This document shows, in pieces, positions 1 to 11,228 of a stretch of DNA of 21,227 nucleotides. The notes below the pieces were generated by a model that ran no database searches, was not told the DNA's origin, and saw only the letters and a list, made by a program, of their open reading frames with translations. Made by a program: the position numbers and the translations under genes. The DNA comes from a virus. The stretch spans positions 1 to 21,227 of IMG/VR virus record IMGVR_UViG_3300013004_000219; one strand, 5' to 3'. Every line of letters starts with the position of its first letter. Positions within the stretch are counted from its first letter, which is position 1.

Positions 1-355
1 CAACCGAAGCGGCACGATTCAATCTCATTTTGATTTTGTTCTTACCTCTTTCAGATTTGTAGCCTGAATATATGTCCTTTCTGCTTTGTGAACCCCCTTT
101 ACCATCGAATACTACGATTACTCTTGTAGGGTTTAGTGTACGGATGGCGTAGCCGATACTTTTTAAAGTACCGACTATTCCTCCAATATGGTCACCATTC
201 TCATTAAGATTAGGTGCGGTTGACCAAGAACGAATGAAGGTATTAAGACCATCAATTACTAAGGTTTTTGAATTACGATGTAAATCACCGAAACCTTTAT
301 GTTCTTCATCTATTTGTTTTAGTATATCTAAATACTTCTTATTAATCTGACTCAT
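1..355 (-). CDS. 5'-3' exonuclease, FEN/PIN-like (RNase H-like), 5' part only
   Basis: This is the N-terminal 118 codons of a gene that runs off the left edge. The frame starts at the ATG at 355 and overlaps the end of the recombinase gene by 14 bases. Seen: a FEN-type metal-site signature LVIDGLNTFIRSW (residues 32-44, Asp35) and VIVVFDGK (79-86, Asp84), followed by the basic SRKDIYSGYKSER segment (91-103). This spacing is typical of the N-terminal domain of phage and Pol I 5'-3' exonucleases such as T4 Rnh, which removes RNA primers and trims flaps during lagging-strand synthesis. Position after SSB and recombinase fits a replication/recombination operon. The catalytic acidic cluster further on and the helix-hairpin-helix region lie outside the window, so activity cannot be judged. 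The family call is fairly safe; the T4 Rnh equivalence is inferred. Confidence 0.82.
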   Translation of the reverse strand, partial: MSQINKKYLDILKQIDEEHKGFGDLHRNSKTLVIDGLNTFIRSWSTAPNLNENGDHIGGIVGTLKSIGYAIRTLNPTRVIVVFDGKGGSQSRKDIYSGYKSERGKNKIKMRLNRAASV

Positions 356-1454
356 TTGCTTCGTCCGTTGTAACTTCAACTTCTTCCGAATTGGAATTTG
401 TGTTTGATTTATATTGTAAAATTTGTGCCTCACATATTCTACGATATATTTGGTCTTTTAATTCATCACTCTCTAACATCTTAGGGAAATCTTTAGATTG
501 AAATTTCATAATCTCTCCCGTATCGATATCGGTATATTCATACCAAGCACCACCTTGCTTTACGATTTTTGAATCTTTCATAACCGCTAACCAACCTCCG
601 TAGTTATCAATACCTCTATCAAAGAAGATATCGAAATCTGCGTGTCGTAATGGTGGTCCCATACGATTTTTAATAACCTGTGTACGAACTTTGATACCAA
701 CGATTCTATCACCAACTTTAAGTTGACCCATACCCTTCAATCTCAATCTAACAGAAGCGTGAAATGCTAATGCTTTACCACCCGATGTTGTCCAAGGGTC
801 GCCAAACATTGCGTTCATCTTTTGTCTTAACTGATTTGTGAATATTAAAGCAATCGATTGTCTACCAATCATATTGGTAATCTTTCTCATTGCTTTGGAA
901 ATGATAATAGCTTTACCAGTCGCAAAACCATCTTTATCATAATCAGCTTCTAATTCTAATTTTGTTGATGCTGCTGCTACTGAATCTACTACGATTGTAA
1001 CTAATCTATCTTTATCACCCGTTCTTACTTTTTCAATAATTGTTTCACATGCTTCAAAGATACCTTCAACAGTATCAACTGAAACATATAGGAGTTTTGA
1101 AATATCTACCCCAATTGCCTCTAAAAATTCTCTACTAACTGCGGTTTCCGTATCAATCAATACTGCTACTCCACCTTTCTTTTGGGTTTCGGCAAGGAGA
1201 TGGGCGGAGAGCAGAGATTTTCCACTCTGCTCTAAACCCGTAATCTCAGTAATACGACCAACTGGCAATCCACCATAAGGACGATTGGAAATTGCTACAT
1301 CCAACATTGCGTTACCCGTAGATAACCAATCTTTAACATTTGTAGGGGCGTCGCCTCCTTCATCTGTCAGGAAGTATGCAATCTTACCATCCTTATTTTG
1401 TTTGTTTAGAGAATCGGCAAGTAAACTTGCTAAATCTTCTTCTCTTTTTGCCAT
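342..1454 (-). CDS. recA: RecA/UvsX-like strand-exchange recombinase
   Basis: This 370-aa ATP-dependent recombinase should form filaments on single-stranded DNA and drive homologous pairing in phage recombination-dependent replication and repair. Seen: Walker A GLEQSGKS (residues 73-80), the acidic IDTET segment (100-104) where RecA carries its DAEHA motif, Walker B LVTIVVDS (151-158), the FTNQLRQK segment leading into DNA-binding loop L2 (205-212) and the DPWTTSGGKAL motif (219-229). The C-terminal GGAWYEY resembles the GAWYSY of RecA. The tail is acidic and Asn/Ser/Glu rich (about 348-370), as in RecA and UvsX. Length is near that of bacterial RecA. It follows the SSB gene by 14 bases and overlaps the exonuclease gene, so the three are probably co-transcribed. 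The sequence reads closer to RecA than to T4 UvsX, but the neighbourhood is that of a T4-type uvsX. Confidence 0.95.
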   Translation of the reverse strand: MAKREEDLASLLADSLNKQNKDGKIAYFLTDEGGDAPTNVKDWLSTGNAMLDVAISNRPYGGLPVGRITEITGLEQSGKSLLSAHLLAETQKKGGVAVLIDTETAVSREFLEAIGVDISKLLYVSVDTVEGIFEACETIIEKVRTGDKDRLVTIVVDSVAAASTKLELEADYDKDGFATGKAIIISKAMRKITNMIGRQSIALIFTNQLRQKMNAMFGDPWTTSGGKALAFHASVRLRLKGMGQLKVGDRIVGIKVRTQVIKNRMGPPLRHADFDIFFDRGIDNYGGWLAVMKDSKIVKQGGAWYEYTDIDTGEIMKFQSKDFPKMLESDELKDQIYRRICEAQILQYKSNTNSNSEEVEVTTDEANESD

Positions 1455-1468
1455 TGTAACTGGTTTAA

Positions 1469-2326
1469 TTAGTTGTTAAATAAATCATCGAATGCCGATG
1501 CTACATCATCTTTTGGTTTTGGAGCTGCTTTAGGAGCTTCATCTTCCCAAGGTAAATCACCACTAATATCAGATGTTCCACCCAATCCAATTGATGATTG
1601 TGGTGCTACTTTAGCAGGTTGTGCTTTAGGAGCTTCCAATGCTTCGTTTACAGGGTTACCTGTTCCGTTTGCAGGTGCTGATGGATTTAACCAATTCTCT
1701 AATACACCTTTTAACTCATCATAAGATAATTCAGAATACAATTCCGTAATTTCTTTTTGAGATTCCAACATTTGTTGAACCTGAGCCGCATCATCTAAAA
1801 TTTTAGAAGTTGCAGGTTTAACTCTGATTGTAGTTGTTGGATAAGCTGCATTTGATTCTTCAGCCGATACTACTTCCAATACGATATCTCTACCAGAAGT
1901 TGGGTCAGTAATATCTCCGTAATCCGGGTCAGCGATGTAACCTAAGATGTCCTGATAAACAGTCTTACCGAATCCCCAAAACTTAACACCTTCGTTCTCC
2001 TTACCTCTTACGATAACGGGTGCAAATGTTCTTAATTTTGGCTCCATCTTCTTACCTGCTTTCCAATCATCAGTGTCTCCTGTGCGTTTTAACTTTTCAG
2101 CAAACTCTACGATAGGGTCAGGTCTTCCAAATGAAATTGGAGATAGATAAGTTTTGTTGTTAATATTGTAGTGAAAATACAATTCGATGAAAGGATTATC
2201 CTTATTGAATTTGTAAGGTACTAAACGGATTTGAGATTTTCCGTTTGCCGGTTTCCAAATTGAATCCGACTTCTTTGTGTTGTTTTGGAGAGAGCTAAAT
2301 CTCTTCAGTGCTAATGAAATGTCCAT
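1469..2326 (-). CDS. gp32-like single-stranded DNA-binding protein
   Basis: This 285-aa protein probably coats single-stranded DNA at replication forks and recombination intermediates and recruits partners through its acidic tail. Seen: a short N-terminal basic segment, a core rich in aromatic and basic residues (about 24-170, with IWKPANGKSQIRLVPYKF near its start) that fits an OB fold, a low-complexity Pro/Ala/Gly linker (about 213-265) and an acidic end, DDVASAFDDLFNN, as in phage and bacterial SSBs. The region contains no Cys/His cluster, so the zinc site of T4 gp32 seems absent. It is the first gene after a host-type promoter (box at 2427-2458) with a leader of about 95 nt, and is followed 14 bases later by the recombinase. 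Function is inferred from architecture and context. Confidence 0.82.
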   Translation of the reverse strand: MDISLALKRFSSLQNNTKKSDSIWKPANGKSQIRLVPYKFNKDNPFIELYFHYNINNKTYLSPISFGRPDPIVEFAEKLKRTGDTDDWKAGKKMEPKLRTFAPVIVRGKENEGVKFWGFGKTVYQDILGYIADPDYGDITDPTSGRDIVLEVVSAEESNAAYPTTTIRVKPATSKILDDAAQVQQMLESQKEITELYSELSYDELKGVLENWLNPSAPANGTGNPVNEALEAPKAQPAKVAPQSSIGLGGTSDISGDLPWEDEAPKAAPKPKDDVASAFDDLFNN

Positions 2327-2426
2327 TGCTTTTTTTGTTTTAAGTTTTAGAAAATTGTTTTTAAAGTTGAGGTTTATATCGATATATTCCTATATCTAAA
2401 TATAACCTTTTTGCTTTTTGTTATAA
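2327..2426 (-). promoter_or_regulatory. Structured AU-rich 5' leader of the SSB gene
   Basis: The stretch between the predicted start of transcription (about 2423) and the SSB ATG has no ORF but has two inverted repeats. GATATA-TTCC-TATATC lies at 2381-2396, a perfect 6-bp stem with GGAA loop on the transcribed strand. TATAAC...GTTATA lies at 2401-2425 around an A-rich loop. The rest, down to the start codon, is A/U-rich and unstructured, with UUUAAA- and CUUAAAA-like runs. T4 gene 32 controls its own translation through a leader with a pseudoknot and a run of UUAAA repeats. This leader has a similar general design, but a pseudoknot is not evident by eye. Confidence 0.45.
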
Positions 2427-2458
2427 CAAATATACGACTATTTTTTGGATTTTCCAAA
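2427..2458 (-). promoter_or_regulatory. Bacteroidota-type promoter for the SSB-recombinase-exonuclease operon
   Basis: On the minus strand TTTG (2455-2458) is followed after exactly 20 bases by TATATTTG (2427-2434). This matches the -33 TTTG / -7 TAnnTTTG consensus of the Bacteroidota housekeeping sigma factor. The -33 element directly follows the stop codon of the GHKL-nuclease gene. Transcription is expected to begin near 2423. Confidence 0.75.
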
Positions 2459-4024
2459 TTAAATAGCGAAGAATTGTAAAGAATTTACCCAAGCTATATC
2501 AATGTTTGAAATAGCTATGTTTATACCAAAAAATTCATTAAAATCCTTAATTTGTTGGTCAAATTGAGGGTTTTTTACTGGTGATACGAATATACCATTA
2601 TGGCACTTATAGTGAGCCATATATCGAACTAATTGGCCGGCTTCATCGCCTGCCCCCTTATCCTTCTTACCTTCGATAATCCATATAGGCTTATTCTCAT
2701 CTAAGTAATCATATATAACTCCATCAGGTGCACCAACTCCACATAGTGGTCTTATTTTAACTTGTTTATCGAAATCTTTTACACCATATGCTCTCTTAGT
2801 AGTATCATCGTTCTTTAATCTTTCAAAGAACTTATCCATATATTTGTTCTCTGAAATAGCAGGTGTTAAAGATGTACTTCTTTCATAAAAATCAATTTCA
2901 TCTAATTTATCATTTACTGCTTTTATGATTTGCTTATATCTCTTAGTTTTCTTAACACCACTTTTTAATGCAGTATAATCTAACCCTTCTTCTACTTCTA
3001 AAAGAATACCATGTCTTTCATTTCGAGAACTCTTTTTATCTAAATTCCATTCCAATATTTTACCTCTCATACCCAATGCAATACCACTAAATTCGTCGCC
3101 ATAACTCCAAGGAGAATTTGCATACTTCTTAGGGTCATATAACGCATCTTTTGTATTATTGAATGTTTCGGTTACTGTCAATGGATGCGGTTTATGCCAG
3201 CATGTAAGATATGCTCTAACATCAGGATATCCTTCAACTACCAATTGTAATTTATCTAAAATTGGAGAATTTTCTCCCAATCCATTTGTAGTATTTATGA
3301 TTCGCTCAGGATTAGACATCAATGGTTTATATGCAATACATTCATGTGACCAAAGAGTATTATTTGGTTTTGTATAATTAATGCTGATATTTAGGAACTC
3401 ATTTAATAATTGTGGATATGTTGATTCAATCTTAGAACAAAATTTATCAAAATCTTTTTTATCAGTCCAATTTCTAATCATTTCTGAGCAATTCTTTATC
3501 TTTATTAAAGTACCACTCTCATATTGAGGAAAATCAATTCCTGTATATTCATCTAATACAAATTCTAAATCTTCTCTTGCATCAGTATAATCATTGATTC
3601 TTAAAATGTATGCAGGATTGTTTTTTGTTTTAGTAATTATGTAATCCAACTCACCTAATGCAAACAATACTACTTTCATACCCATACCCATTCTTGATAA
3701 TCTAAGTTTACCAGCGTTTACACTTTTACCATAGTTAAATGCATCAGCGATAGAATGTATAGGTATACCAATTGAATTATCCAATATTTGAATAAAAGAG
3801 TTATCCCCATCGTAGTTTATTCTAACATCTACTCTGATAGGAGTTTTTGGTTTTTCATTTGGGATTGGATTATCTATTAATTCGCAAATTAATGTTTCCA
3901 AATCATGTCCAACCGCACCAATCTTTTTTGCGGCATCTACTGAAATACTTGGTTTAAATGTAACCAATTTAGTACTCATTGTTCTTTGTTTGTTTTTTAC
4001 AATTTTTAATTCAGGTGTAATCAT
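2459..4024 (-). CDS. GHKL (MORC-like) ATPase fused to a PD-(D/E)XK nuclease-like domain
   Basis: The 521-aa protein carries all four Bergerat-fold ATP-binding motifs: N-box CELIDN (47-52, Asn52 as Mg ligand), DNSIGI (82-87), the Gly lid LSRMGMGMK (109-117) and ESGTLIKI (169-176). A middle region with a Lys-rich loop (354-364) may be the S5-like transducer domain. The C-terminus shows a restriction-nuclease-like pattern: PDG with Asp434, IIEGKK with Glu451-X-Lys453, and QLVRY (464-468), the helix after the active site common in PD-(D/E)XK enzymes. Prokaryotic MORC/MutL-like ATPases linked to restriction systems share this general design. A second in-frame ATG at residue 16 could be the true start. 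It lies 21 bases after the glycosyltransferase gene and shares its promoter. Biological role is unknown: DNA discrimination, host DNA degradation and repair are all possible. Confidence 0.7.
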   Translation of the reverse strand: MITPELKIVKNKQRTMSTKLVTFKPSISVDAAKKIGAVGHDLETLICELIDNPIPNEKPKTPIRVDVRINYDGDNSFIQILDNSIGIPIHSIADAFNYGKSVNAGKLRLSRMGMGMKVVLFALGELDYIITKTKNNPAYILRINDYTDAREDLEFVLDEYTGIDFPQYESGTLIKIKNCSEMIRNWTDKKDFDKFCSKIESTYPQLLNEFLNISINYTKPNNTLWSHECIAYKPLMSNPERIINTTNGLGENSPILDKLQLVVEGYPDVRAYLTCWHKPHPLTVTETFNNTKDALYDPKKYANSPWSYGDEFSGIALGMRGKILEWNLDKKSSRNERHGILLEVEEGLDYTALKSGVKKTKRYKQIIKAVNDKLDEIDFYERSTSLTPAISENKYMDKFFERLKNDDTTKRAYGVKDFDKQVKIRPLCGVGAPDGVIYDYLDENKPIWIIEGKKDKGAGDEAGQLVRYMAHYKCHNGIFVSPVKNPQFDQQIKDFNEFFGINIAISNIDIAWVNSLQFFAI

Positions 4025-4045
4025 ATATTATGTTTTAAATTTTAA

Positions 4046-5377
4046 TTATCCAATCCACTCATATCCATTCTTAGTGAATTTAATCTCAGGAACCTCTCTT
4101 AGAGCGTTCCTATAAGTGTTCCATTTGATTCTAACTCCCCATCCCATATATTTTAAGATATCTTCTTTTGTAACGAATCCTTTGGTTTTAATGTGTTCTT
4201 TTATTTTACCCAATGATTCAGTATCACTCATTACTTTCAAATCAAATACATTCTCCCAGCTATTAAACCATTTGGCAATTCTTTCATTCCAAACCATATT
4301 CTTAGCCAATTCGGTTGTATCGTATGTAATTGGATTATCTAGCATCTCATTGAATTTTTTGATGAAATCTTCTCTACCATCATACAAATATGGATACGGG
4401 TCAGTTGCCACACTAACCATCTCAGGATAACATAAACCATTTGGAAGTAAATAAGGACATCCTACTGAAAAACCATCAGTTGTTGAAATACTCCAAGCTG
4501 AATATGTTTGGAATGTACCTACACCAAATTTAACTTTAGATAAAAAATTCATATACTCATCTCTGCCAGTTAATTTAACTCTCTCATTCCAAGGCCTGTC
4601 GATTTGTGCCAATGTAGTATATACTTTGAAATCTTGCCTTGTTTCCCAAATTTCATCAACACATTTTACAAACCATTCCCATCCGGTATAGCCTGCATCT
4701 CTATGATTAAAAATTACAGTCTTGTCCGTATAGTCAGATACATTACGGGGATTGACTCTATCAACTCCCAAATAATGGGGTTGGATGATATTTTGTAACT
4801 TATCCAATACATCTTGGTTATAATGTTTCGCTGCATGTTTAATTGTAAGTTGTTTTAACCAATCACTATTAACACCACATTCATCCATTTGTAGTAAACC
4901 TGCTACTGATGCATCCAACATATTTTTTGCATATGGAGCATTTTCAGGTACTTCGAACCAATGTGAGTATCCAATAATTTTTGGTGCTATGTTTGTATTA
5001 TTAAATATACAATTTGCTATTTGATTTGTATGTTCTGGTAAATGTGTATAAATGATATCCCAATCGTTTCTTTTCCAATCTATAATTTTCATAAATTGTG
5101 TCGAATCAAAATGAGTACGCATTTGATTGATATATGTAGGTAAGGCGTAAATCCTTTGCTCTACATTTGGAAAGTTTAATGATTTAACAAATTCAGGTAT
5201 AAGAATTGTAAAGTGAATTTTCCATCTTTCACTCATAAAAGGAATAACTCTACGAAGTACTTCTACTAATGAATCGGCTTCTAAGTTATCTCTGAATGTA
5301 TAATTTCCATAAATCAATATTTTATAATCATATTGCTCGGTTTCATACTTATCTACTAAAAATTTACTAATATCCAT
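4046..5377 (-). CDS. GT-B glycosyltransferase with C-terminal winged-helix-like tail, possible DNA glucosyltransferase
   Basis: This 443-aa protein looks like a GT-B (GT4-like) glycosyltransferase. The N-terminal lobe begins with YDYKILIYGNY (16-26). The C-terminal lobe begins near VIFNHRDAGYTGWEWF (221-236) and contains LTGRDEYMNFLSKVKFGVG (269-287) and SAWSISTTDGFSVGCPYL (293-310), the latter where retaining enzymes hold the sugar-nucleotide donor. Residues about 386-443 form a separate module, with TKEDILKYMGWG (403-414) and a closing FTKNGYEWIG, that looks like a winged helix and could bind DNA. Neighbours are an Nmad1 protein upstream and a GHKL-nuclease downstream. A DNA-base sugar substrate is therefore plausible, but a cell-surface or other acceptor cannot be excluded. 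Its promoter at 5382-5413 predicts an almost leaderless mRNA. Confidence 0.72.
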   Translation of the reverse strand: MDISKFLVDKYETEQYDYKILIYGNYTFRDNLEADSLVEVLRRVIPFMSERWKIHFTILIPEFVKSLNFPNVEQRIYALPTYINQMRTHFDSTQFMKIIDWKRNDWDIIYTHLPEHTNQIANCIFNNTNIAPKIIGYSHWFEVPENAPYAKNMLDASVAGLLQMDECGVNSDWLKQLTIKHAAKHYNQDVLDKLQNIIQPHYLGVDRVNPRNVSDYTDKTVIFNHRDAGYTGWEWFVKCVDEIWETRQDFKVYTTLAQIDRPWNERVKLTGRDEYMNFLSKVKFGVGTFQTYSAWSISTTDGFSVGCPYLLPNGLCYPEMVSVATDPYPYLYDGREDFIKKFNEMLDNPITYDTTELAKNMVWNERIAKWFNSWENVFDLKVMSDTESLGKIKEHIKTKGFVTKEDILKYMGWGVRIKWNTYRNALREVPEIKFTKNGYEWIG

Positions 5378-5381
5378 ATTA

Positions 5382-5413
5382 CAAATATAACACTTATTTT
5401 TGACAATTCCAAA
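5382..5413 (-). promoter_or_regulatory. Bacteroidota-type promoter for the glycosyltransferase/GHKL-nuclease operon
   Basis: On the minus strand TTTG (5410-5413) lies 20 bases before TATATTTG (5382-5389). Only 4 bases separate the -7 box from the ATG at 5377, so the transcript should have almost no leader. The -33 box directly follows the stop codon of the upstream Nmad1 gene. Confidence 0.75.
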
Positions 5414-5764
5414 TTATTTTGCCCATTTTCCTCTATTCACCAATTGTGAAATAACAGAATATACTGCAAGGTCTTGGTAAGTATCTTCAATCGATTCACC
5501 TACTTCATCCGGCTGACCTAATACAACCATTTGTTTTAATCTATTAATTTTATCGTTCTTTCTAAACCATAATCCACTCAAAGATAATTTAATATCTTCT
5601 TTAGTAGCCAATGGTGTTCCTACTGAAATATTACCAGGTCCGTAGTTTCTTTGTTTCTTACAAAATGTGGTATACATTTCATCTAAAATGTTCTTAAACT
5701 CTTCACAGGTTTGAGGATAGGTTTCTTCGCAATATTGAATTGCACTCATTTCTTCTTTATTCAT
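5414..5764 (-). CDS. DUF1599/Nmad1-like nucleotide modification associated protein
   Basis: This 116-aa protein is predicted to be mostly helical. It fits the DUF1599 pattern (nucleotide modification associated domain 1): an N-terminal helix ending in FCKKQRNYGPGN (34-45), a central KEDIKLSLSGLWFRKNDKI (about 55-73) and the acidic GESIEDTYQDLAVYSVI (about 89-105). Members are found in phages next to genes for modified bases or nucleotides. The acidic helix recalls all-alpha NTP pyrophosphatases, so a nucleotide-handling role such as clearing or providing a modified dNTP pool is reasonable. No reaction is established for this member. The gene lies 9 bases after the 100-aa ORF, with two in-frame stops between, and shares the AAATAAGTTATG start junction with two other genes. 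Confidence 0.68.
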   Translation of the reverse strand: MNKEEMSAIQYCEETYPQTCEEFKNILDEMYTTFCKKQRNYGPGNISVGTPLATKEDIKLSLSGLWFRKNDKINRLKQMVVLGQPDEVGESIEDTYQDLAVYSVISQLVNRGKWAK

Positions 5765-6534: not shown

Positions 6535-6929
6535 TTTTCCGTATTAAAACTTTTGAAAACTTTAGTTGGTATTTTTTTATATCCTATATTCGATGTAGTC
6601 AATATGCAATTTCTGAATTCTTCCCAATCAATTATATAAGAATTATCCAATTGTCCGCCTGTTTTTGATTTAACTACTTCGTTAAGAGCGTTAATAGTGT
6701 ATATTGTATTCGATTGTTTCTTTCTATGTACTAATATTGTTTTCCATTCGGAATCAATAGCAGATGAACCTTTCTCCACATTAAAAGTAATGAAGGCTTC
6801 TTCAGGTCTTAGTTTACTTTCTAAGATGAAAACATTTGGGTTTGTTAGTATGTAACTTCTTAATATAAAGCTAACCGATTTTTCTAACTCTTCCTTTGTC
6901 GTAAATAGGCAAAGTAGTTGTGTGTTCAT
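6522..6929 (-). CDS. Hypothetical protein, 135 aa
   Basis: This is an uncharacterised protein with an even, globular composition. It begins MNTQLLCLFTTKEELEKSV. It has a middle segment SEWKTILVHRKKQSNTIYTI (about 59-78) and a C-terminal half with DWEEFRNCIL (about 101-110) and a basic end KKIPTKVFKSF. No catalytic motif, signal peptide or membrane helix is apparent. Its start codon overlaps the stop codon of the 720-aa gene (TAATG at 6927-6931), so translation is probably coupled to that protein. I have an impression of similar small proteins beside structural genes in T4-like phages, but I cannot name the family. Confidence 0.75.
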   Translation of the reverse strand: MNTQLLCLFTTKEELEKSVSFILRSYILTNPNVFILESKLRPEEAFITFNVEKGSSAIDSEWKTILVHRKKQSNTIYTINALNEVVKSKTGGQLDNSYIIDWEEFRNCILTTSNIGYKKIPTKVFKSFNTENLEK

Positions 6930-9091
6930 TATGCTAATCCATTTTTTCGTTTAAAACATTCAATCGTGTCCTTATCCCATTTATAAACGGTGTTAAATCT
7001 ACCATTTGCACCGGTTTTACTTCTCTGTCTTTTTTCTCCAATTTTAATTTTTTGCTTTTTATCATTTAAGAAATATGCAATTCTAACAGAACCTGTAATT
7101 TGATTTTCTTTTGATAATTGAAACTCTTCTTTTGTAGAACCAAACTTTCTAATAAAATCATCCATATTATTTGTATTCATACATTGTGAAATAATATCAT
7201 TATTAATGACACCTTTACCACATACAACTTCAAATAAACCATTATATGCAAATACACCGTGCTTATCACCCATTGCACCTCCCATATGGAATTTATCTAT
7301 AAAGTTCGTAGCATCCATATAATCTCCCAATCCAACTTTACCACCTTTGATTCCTATTTGTATGTTGTTCATCTTGTTCAATACTTTTCTTTCAATTGCT
7401 ACTGAACGCTTTCTGATATCATCAATTTTTTGTGCAACCAATGGGTCTAGTCCAAATCTACTTTTTAATCTTGCAATTATCTCAGCTTCTTTACTTGTAA
7501 ATGTAGTTTTTGGAGAACCTGCTTTTGTTACATATGCAGTTTGCTCTTCAGGAGACATTGATGAAAATTTTAAAAATTGAGTTACTGCTTCAGCCGGAGT
7601 TTCTGCGTTAAATGGCTTACCCATATATTTTTTAATAACCCCATCATAATATGCTTGAGGATTAGCACCACCACTTAAAGTTTTAAATTGATTTATAACA
7701 TCTTTAACTGGCATTTTTAACATTTTTTTAGCAGGTTCAGCTCCAACTGATTTTAGTTCAGCTTCTATTGCATTTAATGTTTTTGTTTGCGTATCTATAA
7801 AAGTTTTTATTTTTTCAGCATCTGCTTTTTTCATTTTACCCGTCTGAACCAACTTATCAATTTGGTCTTTCTTTATACTACCTTCTTTTTGAAATGATGA
7901 TTGTGCAACAATTGCTTCAAATGAATCTTTATCTGATGTGAATTTAATCATTAAATCACCAGTCTTTGAATTATATGCAAATTGAGAAGTATCTGATGGG
8001 TTTGCGCCACCACCGCCTGCTGCAACTAATTGTAATGCAATATTTTTTGGTATTTCAGTTCCATCTGGTCCGAATATTTTATTAGATTGCCTAACCATAT
8101 CGGCTTGTTGGGATTTACCACCTTCATCTCCAAAAAAACCATTTATTGTACAATCTTCTTCTTTCCAACCATTTGCTTGTATTCCTTCTTTTATCTTCTT
8201 AGCTTTAATTAATCCACCATTGGCTGCAACCATTAATCTAGATAATTGTCCATCGGATAATTTATCAAACTTACCTTTACCTGATGCTTTAAACTCTCTT
8301 AATTCTTTAGCTGATATACTTGGTACTTTATCTTGCTGTCCGGCAATTCCTCTCTTATCTGCGGCTTCTAATAACGAACCACCTTTTAAGTTATCGTATA
8401 AGTGTGAAACGGCTGATACTAAATCGGTTTTATCGTTCTCCAATGCCCACTCACATACATCACATGAACCATTTTCATTTAACATTGAACCAGCGTTACC
8501 TGGTGCTGCTCCTGCATCTTCTTCGCTTTCGGATTTATGATATCCTTTAGAATAAAATGAATCTCTACTTTGACCTGCTTGAATACTAATTCTATCTATT
8601 TCAGATTTTATTTTAGTTAGATTTTTTATTTTACTTGAGCCATCTCCATCATTTGATTGTGTATCATTTCCAGGAAATACATTTGCACCACCACCACTTA
8701 CACCAAATGTATTTGGTCCTTGCTGAGCTGGAATTTCTTCTGGTTCTTCGTTTCCAAATGTACCATTCGATTTTGCTTTCTTTATTTGAGCAGTAGTTGC
8801 TTTATCGTGCACCGATGCATTAAAGTTTGAAGTTTTTACAGGATATACTGAACCACTCTTTTTATTAACAACAATGGTAGTATCGTTTCCTACAATTTTT
8901 TTAGGTTTAGCTTCATTTAAATATGAAAAATACACTCTAGCTTTTTGAGCAAGATGTGCTGCATCTGAAATGCCATTCTCTCTCAGTATATCAATCAATT
9001 GATTAACATGAGATTCTTTAGTTAAATCTGGTATACCACCCTCTACTCTATAACTTAACTCCGATAAGATTTCTTTAAAATTTGGAATCAT
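6929..9091 (-). CDS. Large hypothetical protein, 720 aa, probably virion-associated
   Basis: No family is recognised with confidence. Residues 1-60 (FKEILSELSYRVEGGIPDL, then a helix ending near FSYLNEAK) look like a compact helical domain. Residues 65-205 are low complexity, rich in Gly, Asn, Ser and acidic residues. A CDVC pair lies at 210-213. The middle contains GGGGAN and a beta-rich segment around SKTGDLMIKFTSDKDSFE, a pattern I associate loosely with large virion proteins of T4-like marine phages. The remainder is helical and Lys-rich, with a basic end. It follows the 274-aa gene by 4 bases and is coupled to the 135-aa gene. The candidate late promoter upstream of the 274-aa gene suggests late expression. 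A structural or injected role is inferred, not shown. Confidence 0.6.
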   Translation of the reverse strand: MIPNFKEILSELSYRVEGGIPDLTKESHVNQLIDILRENGISDAAHLAQKARVYFSYLNEAKPKKIVGNDTTIVVNKKSGSVYPVKTSNFNASVHDKATTAQIKKAKSNGTFGNEEPEEIPAQQGPNTFGVSGGGANVFPGNDTQSNDGDGSSKIKNLTKIKSEIDRISIQAGQSRDSFYSKGYHKSESEEDAGAAPGNAGSMLNENGSCDVCEWALENDKTDLVSAVSHLYDNLKGGSLLEAADKRGIAGQQDKVPSISAKELREFKASGKGKFDKLSDGQLSRLMVAANGGLIKAKKIKEGIQANGWKEEDCTINGFFGDEGGKSQQADMVRQSNKIFGPDGTEIPKNIALQLVAAGGGGANPSDTSQFAYNSKTGDLMIKFTSDKDSFEAIVAQSSFQKEGSIKKDQIDKLVQTGKMKKADAEKIKTFIDTQTKTLNAIEAELKSVGAEPAKKMLKMPVKDVINQFKTLSGGANPQAYYDGVIKKYMGKPFNAETPAEAVTQFLKFSSMSPEEQTAYVTKAGSPKTTFTSKEAEIIARLKSRFGLDPLVAQKIDDIRKRSVAIERKVLNKMNNIQIGIKGGKVGLGDYMDATNFIDKFHMGGAMGDKHGVFAYNGLFEVVCGKGVINNDIISQCMNTNNMDDFIRKFGSTKEEFQLSKENQITGSVRIAYFLNDKKQKIKIGEKRQRSKTGANGRFNTVYKWDKDTIECFKRKNGLA

Positions 9092-9968: not shown

Positions 9969-11228
9969 CTAATCTATTACTACTAAATTGTTGTAATTAC
10001 TTCCTTCATATGCACGAATGGGGAATCCACCCTCCTCCATTATGGTCGGCAAATGATTTAAAATCTCATCCCTTTCGCTAGGATGTGTATCTATAAGGAA
10101 CGCATCATAAGTATAAAGTACCATTTTCGATTTTTTATCACTCAGATAATCTAACACCTTTGGTATCTTCATATAGTTCACTTCAGTTTCTAATGCCTGA
10201 AGAAGATAGTTGAATACCTTTTGTTCAGTCGCTCCCTCAATTTTTGAGAAATGTATTTCCCTCTTATAAAGAGGCGTCGTCAAACGACCGGAGATTACGA
10301 ACTTTTGGTATAATTCCCTTATGTACTTTTCTACTTCTCTAAAGAATGGAATCCCCCTAGCGTTATCATCTAACCCCCCATAAAGGTAAGTAAATGTTAT
10401 CTTCTTTGCCGTTTCGTAATCACACCCATATAAATCCGCTAAGTGTTGGTGAGCGGTAATCCCTTTTGGAAATTCGTATCGAATCATTTTGGCAATCAAA
10501 CGAATGTGATATGATTCATAATCGAATTGTAAAAGAGTACCATCCCCAAATCTACTAACGAATAGTTCCCTACTCCCATCACCCTTATTTAAGGCAGAAT
10601 AGTTTACATTGAGATGTCTATTGGAAGGTCTACCCGTAGTTGTGTATGGATTGTATTGTGTGTATACCTTACTATCCCTAATGTAAGCCGGATTGAAGCT
10701 GAAACTATCAATAAATTTTTCTTCTTCGACTTGTACCCCAGCCCCCTCCAGCCTCCCTAATTCTTTTATGGAATCTGAATAAATACGATACCAACTCTGT
10801 CGATTTTGTATATCAGGAATTCGTTTTAAAACCTCATACCATTTCACCAAAGGGATACAATCATTCAGTTCTATATAGTCGCTTCTATGCCCCTTAAAAA
10901 CCTCAACAGCGAACTCATTGAATATGAACGACTTACCATATTCTTCAAAGTAGACCCACTCATAATCCAATCCTTTTGATTGAATATAGCGATTACCTAA
11001 AACAAGGGTATTTTCGTTACAAAGTTTGTGTATTGGGAATTGAGAAACCGAACCGGCATCTATGTGTTGGAAATTTAAAATAAAATCCGTATCTTTGGTT
11101 CGTATGTATACAAACGAAATAGGAAACATCAACTCATGTCCCTTTGGGGAACTCCATACCGGCACCACTAATGTGATATCCTTTGGATTGAGTAATTGTA
11201 AATCGGTATTTGACTCTATTAGGTTCAT
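9969..11228 (-). CDS. Short divergent family A DNA polymerase
   Basis: This 419-aa protein has the palm/fingers motifs of Pol I. Seen: TTGRPSNRHLNVNYSAL (about 197-213), matching the TGRLSSxxPNLQNIP motif. Motif A is QFDYESYHIRL (catalytic Asp236, Arg243). Motif B is AKKITFTYLYGG (Lys275, Phe279, Tyr283). Motif C is YTYDAFLID (Asp375). The two metal-binding Asp residues are kept. The steric-gate Glu of motif A is replaced by His241, and the usual VHDE of motif C reads TYDA. Residues 1-180 show no clear 3'-5' exonuclease motifs, and the protein is far shorter than Klenow-type enzymes. The ATG at 11228 is preferred over a TTG nine bases upstream that lies in the promoter. It is flanked by virion genes, and its base use looks less AT-rich than theirs. 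Confidence 0.8.
   Translation of the reverse strand: MNLIESNTDLQLLNPKDITLVVPVWSSPKGHELMFPISFVYIRTKDTDFILNFQHIDAGSVSQFPIHKLCNENTLVLGNRYIQSKGLDYEWVYFEEYGKSFIFNEFAVEVFKGHRSDYIELNDCIPLVKWYEVLKRIPDIQNRQSWYRIYSDSIKELGRLEGAGVQVEEEKFIDSFSFNPAYIRDSKVYTQYNPYTTTGRPSNRHLNVNYSALNKGDGSRELFVSRFGDGTLLQFDYESYHIRLIAKMIRYEFPKGITAHQHLADLYGCDYETAKKITFTYLYGGLDDNARGIPFFREVEKYIRELYQKFVISGRLTTPLYKREIHFSKIEGATEQKVFNYLLQALETEVNYMKIPKVLDYLSDKKSKMVLYTYDAFLIDTHPSERDEILNHLPTIMEEGGFPIRAYEGSNYNNLVVID

Follow-up and report, generated by a model that had tools for sequence, protein, structure and literature searches.

A viral record of 21,227 bases in IMG/VR (IMGVR_UViG_3300013004_000219; "the window" below denotes this entire stretch) encodes, on its minus strand, a glycosyltransferase (GT) followed by a GHKL ATPase fused to a predicted nuclease. 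We put the probability at about one-half that this GT-GHKL pair belongs to a phage locus for DNA hypermodification whose nuclease can be exchanged and leaves the phage's own modified DNA uncut. The pair itself is real, and the linkage of its two genes goes far beyond chance adjacency. In the proposed mechanism, the pair would be a movable unit of the hypermodification locus. The GT would add a sugar to phage DNA, probably onto a base that has already been altered by Mom-like or DruA-like enzymes, whose genes lie elsewhere in related genomes, and the GHKL protein would be an ATP-driven nuclease that cuts unmarked DNA of the host or of a rival phage and spares the marked phage DNA. The slot beside the GT is exchangeable, holding genes of the DUF262-HNH, ParB-HNH, GIY-YIG-ParB, or other nuclease classes in related phages, or none. 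We infer that DNA is the substrate, that the slot proteins have nuclease activity, and that the mark protects.

Queries of viral contigs with GHKL proteins, together with the window, gave 11 contigs in five lineages: the window with L002, L003, and L004; L138 with L141; L152; L172 with L177; and L200 with L201. In each of the 10 contigs with a visible GT side (L004 being cut off there), a GT gene adjoined the GHKL gene or was separated from it by a single gene. The intervening gene, found in L138 and L141, encodes a TET-associated glycosyltransferase (TAGT; PF20691, 1e-18). Since L152, L200, and L201 were recovered by GHKL queries alone, the linkage was not produced by searching with the GT. 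The order of the genes varied: the GT precedes GHKL in the window type and L152 and follows it in L172, L177, L200, and L201, and the arrangement in L138 and L141 is GHKL-TAGT-GT. The linkage of (putative) modification and nuclease genes by which restriction-modification systems are recognized was found in 10 of the 10 visible GHKL contigs. Two neighborhoods contained further genes. A 534-amino-acid methyltransferase-like gene (1799-3403) is located upstream of the distant GT-GHKL pair of L152, and L138 carries the TET-associated glycosyltransferase and a 2OG-Fe(II) oxygenase-like gene (PF13759) near its GT and in one run of genes with it, at 7198-7983 and 10100-10750.

The window represents a T4-like phage, with genes for gp32, a UvsX-like recombinase, and baseplate and tail-tube proteins. 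The three adjacent genes from which a sequence-only reading had assembled a DNA modification and discrimination cassette were confirmed, and the order of transcription on the minus strand is Nmad1, GT, GHKL, gp32, uvsX:

5414-5764, minus strand: Nmad1/DUF1599-like gene, 116 amino acids; a neighbor from the conserved replication block, outside the pair
5382-5413, minus strand: Bacteroidota-type promoter, TTTG-N20-TATATTTG, between Nmad1 and GT, upstream of the GT-GHKL pair
4046-5377, minus strand: GT with a GT-B/GT4 fold, 443 amino acids
4046-4225, minus strand: C-terminal tail of the GT, a possible winged-helix domain, about residues 385-443
2459-4024, minus strand: GHKL ATPase fused to a PD-(D/E)XK nuclease motif, 521 amino acids
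3608-3901, minus strand: GHKL (HATPase_c_3) domain, residues 42-139
2621-2734, minus strand: PD-(D/E)XK motif region, with G431, P433-D434, E451-x-K453, and Q464xxxY468
2427-2458, minus strand: Bacteroidota-type promoter of gp32, the right-hand boundary of the inserted pair
1469-2326, minus strand: gp32
342-1454, minus strand: uvsX

The inserted block begins directly after the Nmad1 stop codon with its own promoter and ends ahead of the gp32 promoter. Only 21 nucleotides separate the GT stop from the GHKL start, and the promoter shared by these two genes in the sequence-only reading was recovered as the element at 5382-5413. Promoters were scanned as a -33/-7 pattern, TTTG-N18-22-TAnnTTTG, which we take to be the Bacteroidota consensus. 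Six occurrences were observed in the window, compared to 1.21 expected and a maximum of 4 in shuffled sequence. Because of these promoters, and because the nearest isolate match to a Mom protein of related loci is from Polaribacter phage P12002L, the host of the window phage is likely a member of the Bacteroidota. The host-like promoter and the location in the replication region would also suit a host-takeover or counter-defense enzyme that acts irrespective of DNA state; with GHKL tied to one GT family in all 10 visible contigs, we consider this very improbable. Elsewhere in the window, a 720-amino-acid protein (6929-9091) is conserved in many relatives over an N-terminal stretch of ~40-220 residues, the remainder being highly variable.

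Nmad1 does not belong to any GT-GHKL cassette. In the best 80 of 412 Nmad1 relatives, gp32 lay downstream in 79, while GT was found in 4 and GHKL in 1. Because gp32 accompanies Nmad1 almost invariably and GT does so rarely, we place Nmad1 in the conserved replication backbone, outside the cassette. The three-gene cassette of the sequence-only reading is therefore reduced to the GT-GHKL pair: rare co-occurrence, which was to count as refutation, removes Nmad1 and leaves the other two genes together. The gene product matched PHROG 1485 (6.3e-15), and its PF07659 score of 23.5 bits was just under the curated Pfam cutoff of 25. A six-sequence Nmad1 profile gave a single match in the PDB, the ParM fusion 4xhp, at a meaningless E value of 0.095.

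The gap between Nmad1 and gp32 serves as an insertion site, and by-eye reading indicated other cargo there in relatives. This includes deaminase-like genes (L102, 3410-3865; L113, 943-1386), dehydrogenase-like genes (L070, 909-1532; also L071 and L073), and a 365-amino-acid gene of no recognized kind (L051, 10367-11464), all as read by eye.

The gene in the slot beside the GT, denoted X, varies. We kept the best 80 of 351 GT relatives and compared 90 distinct GT loci, which include many near-copies and are not independent; L142, with a 41-amino-acid GT fragment, was left out. X adjoined the GT in 36 of the 90 loci, and two more had GHKL one gene away. Thirty of the 36 X genes were of nuclease type and fell into several unrelated classes: GIY-YIG-ParB (10), GHKL (8), DUF262-HNH (5), ParB-HNH (5), endonuclease VII (1), and ParB-nuclease (1). 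The other six (L127, L171, L173, L174, L176, and L180) were without a class. The GIY-YIG-ParB class matched a homing endonuclease PHROG at 6.9e-10 and Pfam only at E values of 0.13-0.35. DUF262-HNH genes of L126 and L134 matched GmrSD_N (6.8e-9 and 3e-9), and those of L209 and L211 were assigned by similarity to them. The ParB-HNH class (alignment A4) was assigned partly from a motif read by eye, with a weak GmrSD_N match of 0.02 in L016. The endonuclease VII match was 1.6e-7, and the ParB-nuclease was assigned from ParB_N (0.0093) and motifs read partly by eye.

Exchange was evident at the Nmad1-gp32 site, where the GTs of L002, L005, L006, and L007 are 98-100% identical to that of the window but are followed by GHKL in L002 and by ParB-HNH in L005-L007. 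Among relatives of the window phage, DruA is separated from a short GT by DUF262-HNH-like genes in G009 and G011, and the corresponding locus of G008 lacks X. When upstream of the GT, X was often translationally coupled to it, most such pairs overlapping by 1-8 nucleotides or being separated by 0-15 nucleotides; gaps of 83-220 nucleotides were found in L134, L171, L172, and L191, the L172 figure coming from a truncated ORF (open reading frame) call. A downstream X was 82-178 nucleotides away, but 21 nucleotides away in the window and L002. Because X varies while the GT stays, the pattern suggests that the X nucleases have low sequence specificity and are all blocked by one mark, in preference to site-specific pairs of the classical kind.

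The main rival explanation, which we regard as unlikely, is that the X nucleases are free-standing homing endonucleases that spread by cutting, at the site, relatives lacking them, with the GT simply a flanking gene. As is typical of homing, X is present at one junction in some phages and missing from it in others. T4 offers a precedent (PMC2988022): segA lies between uvsX and beta-gt, mobB next to alpha-gt, and segG next to gene 32. The GIY-YIG-ParB class has the homing endonuclease match given above, and a GIY-YIG/NUMOD3 gene (L019, 646-1518) lies between Mom and GT. The window GHKL protein and the four ParB-HNH proteins scanned, however, matched no homing family among PHROGs. In searches of Pfam and PHROGs, the window protein had no GIY-YIG, HNH, or LAGLIDADG catalytic domain. 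GHKL adjoins the GT upstream in some contigs and downstream in others, and does so at more than one locus, and the other Nmad1-gp32 insertions are not nuclease-like by eye. In addition, wherever the records searched had these nucleases, they were present in one copy, located at the GT: GHKL in 3 of 24, ParB-HNH in 3 of 26, and GIY-YIG-ParB in 1 of 26.

A second alternative, somewhat less probable than homing, is that X is a type IV-like nuclease directed against the differently modified DNA of rivals, for example, DNA modified by Mom and DruA that lacks this sugar, much as GmrSD targets DNA bearing glucose. The GmrSD_N matches of L126 and L134 are in line with this proposal, as is the existence of related phages with Mom, DruA, and a different, short GT. 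The window protein, on the other hand, had no GmrSD_N (DUF262) match in Pfam at E values up to 1.

The ATPase-nuclease identity given to the GHKL protein in the sequence-only reading was borne out by motifs. The window protein matched Pfam HATPase_c_3 at 9.1e-8. We aligned it with its homologs from L172, L177, L138, and L152, which are 22-29% identical to it. Residues E48, N52, D82, G86, G113, G115, and K117 of ATPase motifs N, G1, and G2 were invariant in all five sequences, as were G431, P433, D434, E451, K453, Q464, and Y468 of the C-terminal PD...ExK...QxxxY motif region. A profile of the five (A8) retrieved MORC3 and MORC4 first from the PDB (E values of 3.6e-4 to 1.4e-3). The protein is a MORC-like GHKL ATPase joined to a putative PD-(D/E)XK nuclease. 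dN/dS (nonsynonymous to synonymous substitution ratio, Nei-Gojobori) was ~0.05 for L200/L201 and ~0.26 for L172/L177, which argues for purifying selection on the GHKL genes; GT values of ~0.03 (window/L006) and ~0.08 (window/L016) point to the same for the GT.

The five bacterial and archaeal GHKL matches (L155-L159) covered the ATPase part only, and their C termini appeared by eye to be HEPN-like rather than PD-(D/E)XK; DNA methyltransferase-like genes lie near those of L157 and L159, also by eye. No match to the window GHKL protein was found in plasmids. PADLOC returned no match for four window proteins. Among ten proteins from related loci, it matched the slot proteins of L126 and L006 to NsnA (6.4e-15 and 1.3e-6) and a DruA-like protein to DruA (1e-21), the others giving weak matches or none.

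The window GT had no significant match in Pfam, although 5 of 21 aligned family members matched Glycos_transf_1 (best, 2.7e-5). Its AlphaFold model had a predicted local distance difference test (pLDDT) of 89.1 and a predicted template modeling score (pTM) of 0.86. Foldseek placed it with the GT4 enzymes MshA and BshA in the PDB, and VIA-align superimposed 332 residues on mannosyltransferase 7qsg (Z score of 26.1, root mean square deviation of 3.4), all 50 matches listed having Z scores above 20. The modeled protein has a GT-B fold of GT4 type, in agreement with the sequence-only assignment. T4 AGT and BGT were not among the 50 matches listed in either PDB fold search, which excludes nothing. 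In predicted viral proteins, the best match was an uncharacterized phage protein with 40% identity, and two glycosyltransferases of phage SP-15 ranked 20 and 48. The tail was modeled as three helices with one short pair of strands, with TFIIE_beta as the sole, weak Pfam match (E value of 0.079); DNA binding by this tail is plausible. The GT was single copy in each of the 19 of 26 records that had it.

A generic GT4 fold would also serve a GT that modifies a target other than DNA, such as a protein or an envelope glycan, its closeness to nucleases then reflecting a shared accessory region. In L188-L190, moreover, the GT follows nucleotide-sugar genes, including GDP_Man_Dehyd/epimerase and RmlD-like genes in L188 (6182-8004) and a C-methyltransferase in L189; the predicted functions hint at a phage-made sugar donor at these loci. 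We nevertheless judge a non-DNA target improbable, given the repeated linkage of the GT to Mom, DruA, and DNA polymerase B and the TET-associated glycosyltransferase in L138 and L141.

Genes of base modification are common around the GT. DruA-like genes were found within 8 kb of the GT in 52 of the 90 loci and Mom-like genes in 23; 61 loci had at least one of the two. Representatives matched PF14236 (3.4e-20) and PF25680 (2.6e-44). We also compared the 10 records that were selected through Nmad1 and are 40 kb or longer. All three with a GT (G008, G009, and G011) carry Mom as well as DruA. Seven lack a GT; six of these have neither, and G010, which is cut off at the slot, has Mom. A one-sided Fisher test gave P = 0.033, the 10 records not being independent. 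In G008, a Mom-Mom-DruA-GT locus starts ~7.4 kb beyond the end of uvsX. A DruA gene beside the pair, as expected of Druantia, was not found in the window, where the DruA profile had no match within 8 kb of the GT. The idea that DruA is a distant Mom was rejected because hhalign showed no significant similarity between the two alignments (P = 0.053 over 40 columns). In L193 and L195, four to five consecutive Mom-like genes come after the GT.

The sequence-only reading had found no hydroxylase or hydroxymethylase in the window, and indeed no hydroxymethylase or TET/JBP match was detected among its 20 ORFs, all scanned with PHROGs and the first 10 also with Pfam. A hydroxymethylase route was considered and set aside: PF00303 (the thymidylate synthase type) was found in one of 16 related records (G010), the absence from the others being no proof because the records are fragments. 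Mom-like and DruA-like genes accompany the GT, and this hydroxymethylase was not seen in 15 of 16 records; the base may therefore come from a modification of the Mom type instead of from hydroxymethylation.

Several observations weigh against a hypermodification locus with an exchangeable, self-sparing nuclease. Fifty-four of the 90 GT loci have no immediate X (some end at a contig edge), and many DruA-GT-HD loci clearly lack it; the GT therefore works without X. Swapped nucleases beside a constant GT are unlike classical sequence-specific restriction-modification. The GHKL model was poor (pLDDT of 53.5 overall and below 70 in the PD-(D/E)XK part), so that the nuclease assignment rests on motifs. 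The fold predicted for the GT is a generic GT4 fold that says nothing of DNA as the acceptor. Finally, the window phage's base-supplying enzyme is out of sight because the record stops 341 bases past uvsX, before the position of Mom and DruA in relatives.

Among known systems, GmrSD is a type IV restriction enzyme that attacks glucosylated DNA. DUF262-HNH genes occupy the slot in L126, L134, and, by similarity, L209 and L211, whereas the window protein is a GHKL-PD-(D/E)XK protein without a DUF262 match. EndoII and EndoIV of T4 are nucleases that spare marked phage DNA. In T4, as proposed for the window, DNA is marked with sugar and nucleases of the seg and mob groups lie beside GT genes (PMC2988022). 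The nucleases of the window and related loci, in contrast, are of other families, and T4-type hydroxymethylation has no PF00303 counterpart in the 15 records mentioned above. GHKL ATPases of the MORC type are found in restriction-modification operons of bacteria, in which a GHKL ATPase lies beside DNA modification and nuclease genes (PMC2292703), a grouping similar to that proposed for the window. The window differs from such MORC/paraMORC operons in being phage borne, in having the ATPase and nuclease motif in one chain, and in having a GT rather than a methylase as the partner.

The closest arrangement that we found in the literature is that of jumbo-phage fusions of Mom to a restriction endonuclease (Mom-REase), which PMC7824862 predicts to modify the phage's own DNA and attack DNA of the host or of superinfecting phages. 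A phage that modifies its own DNA and attacks unmodified DNA is therefore an idea already known from that source. Both systems join phage-borne DNA modification to a nuclease, but in the window, the predicted nuclease has a gene of its own, which is exchangeable and linked to a GT. Section 3.4.7 of PMC7824862, on Mom-REase, names neither the GHKL nor the DUF262 class. What appears to be new here is the predicted GHKL-PD-(D/E)XK protein, an unusual effector, and the exchangeable slot.

A broader picture can be offered more tentatively and with less confidence than the locus itself. A widespread phage family may share one hypermodification pathway (Mom/DruA and a GT whose tail binds DNA) combined with unrelated nucleases that are swapped in a single slot next to the GT and are all blocked by one sugar mark, and in the window, a MORC-like ATPase clamp might test DNA for the mark before cutting. 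Linkage to the GT points to sugar-bearing bases that are as yet unknown, and five GT and GHKL proteins (the GTs of the window and L195 and the GHKL proteins of the window, L200, and L152) had no match in 50,697 phage records. If the proposed mechanism is true, phages carry restriction-modification-like weapons with interchangeable effectors. It would make testable how phages compete within one cell, what hypermodified bases pay beyond evasion of host enzymes, and how the ability to read DNA marks arose in MORC-type ATPases.

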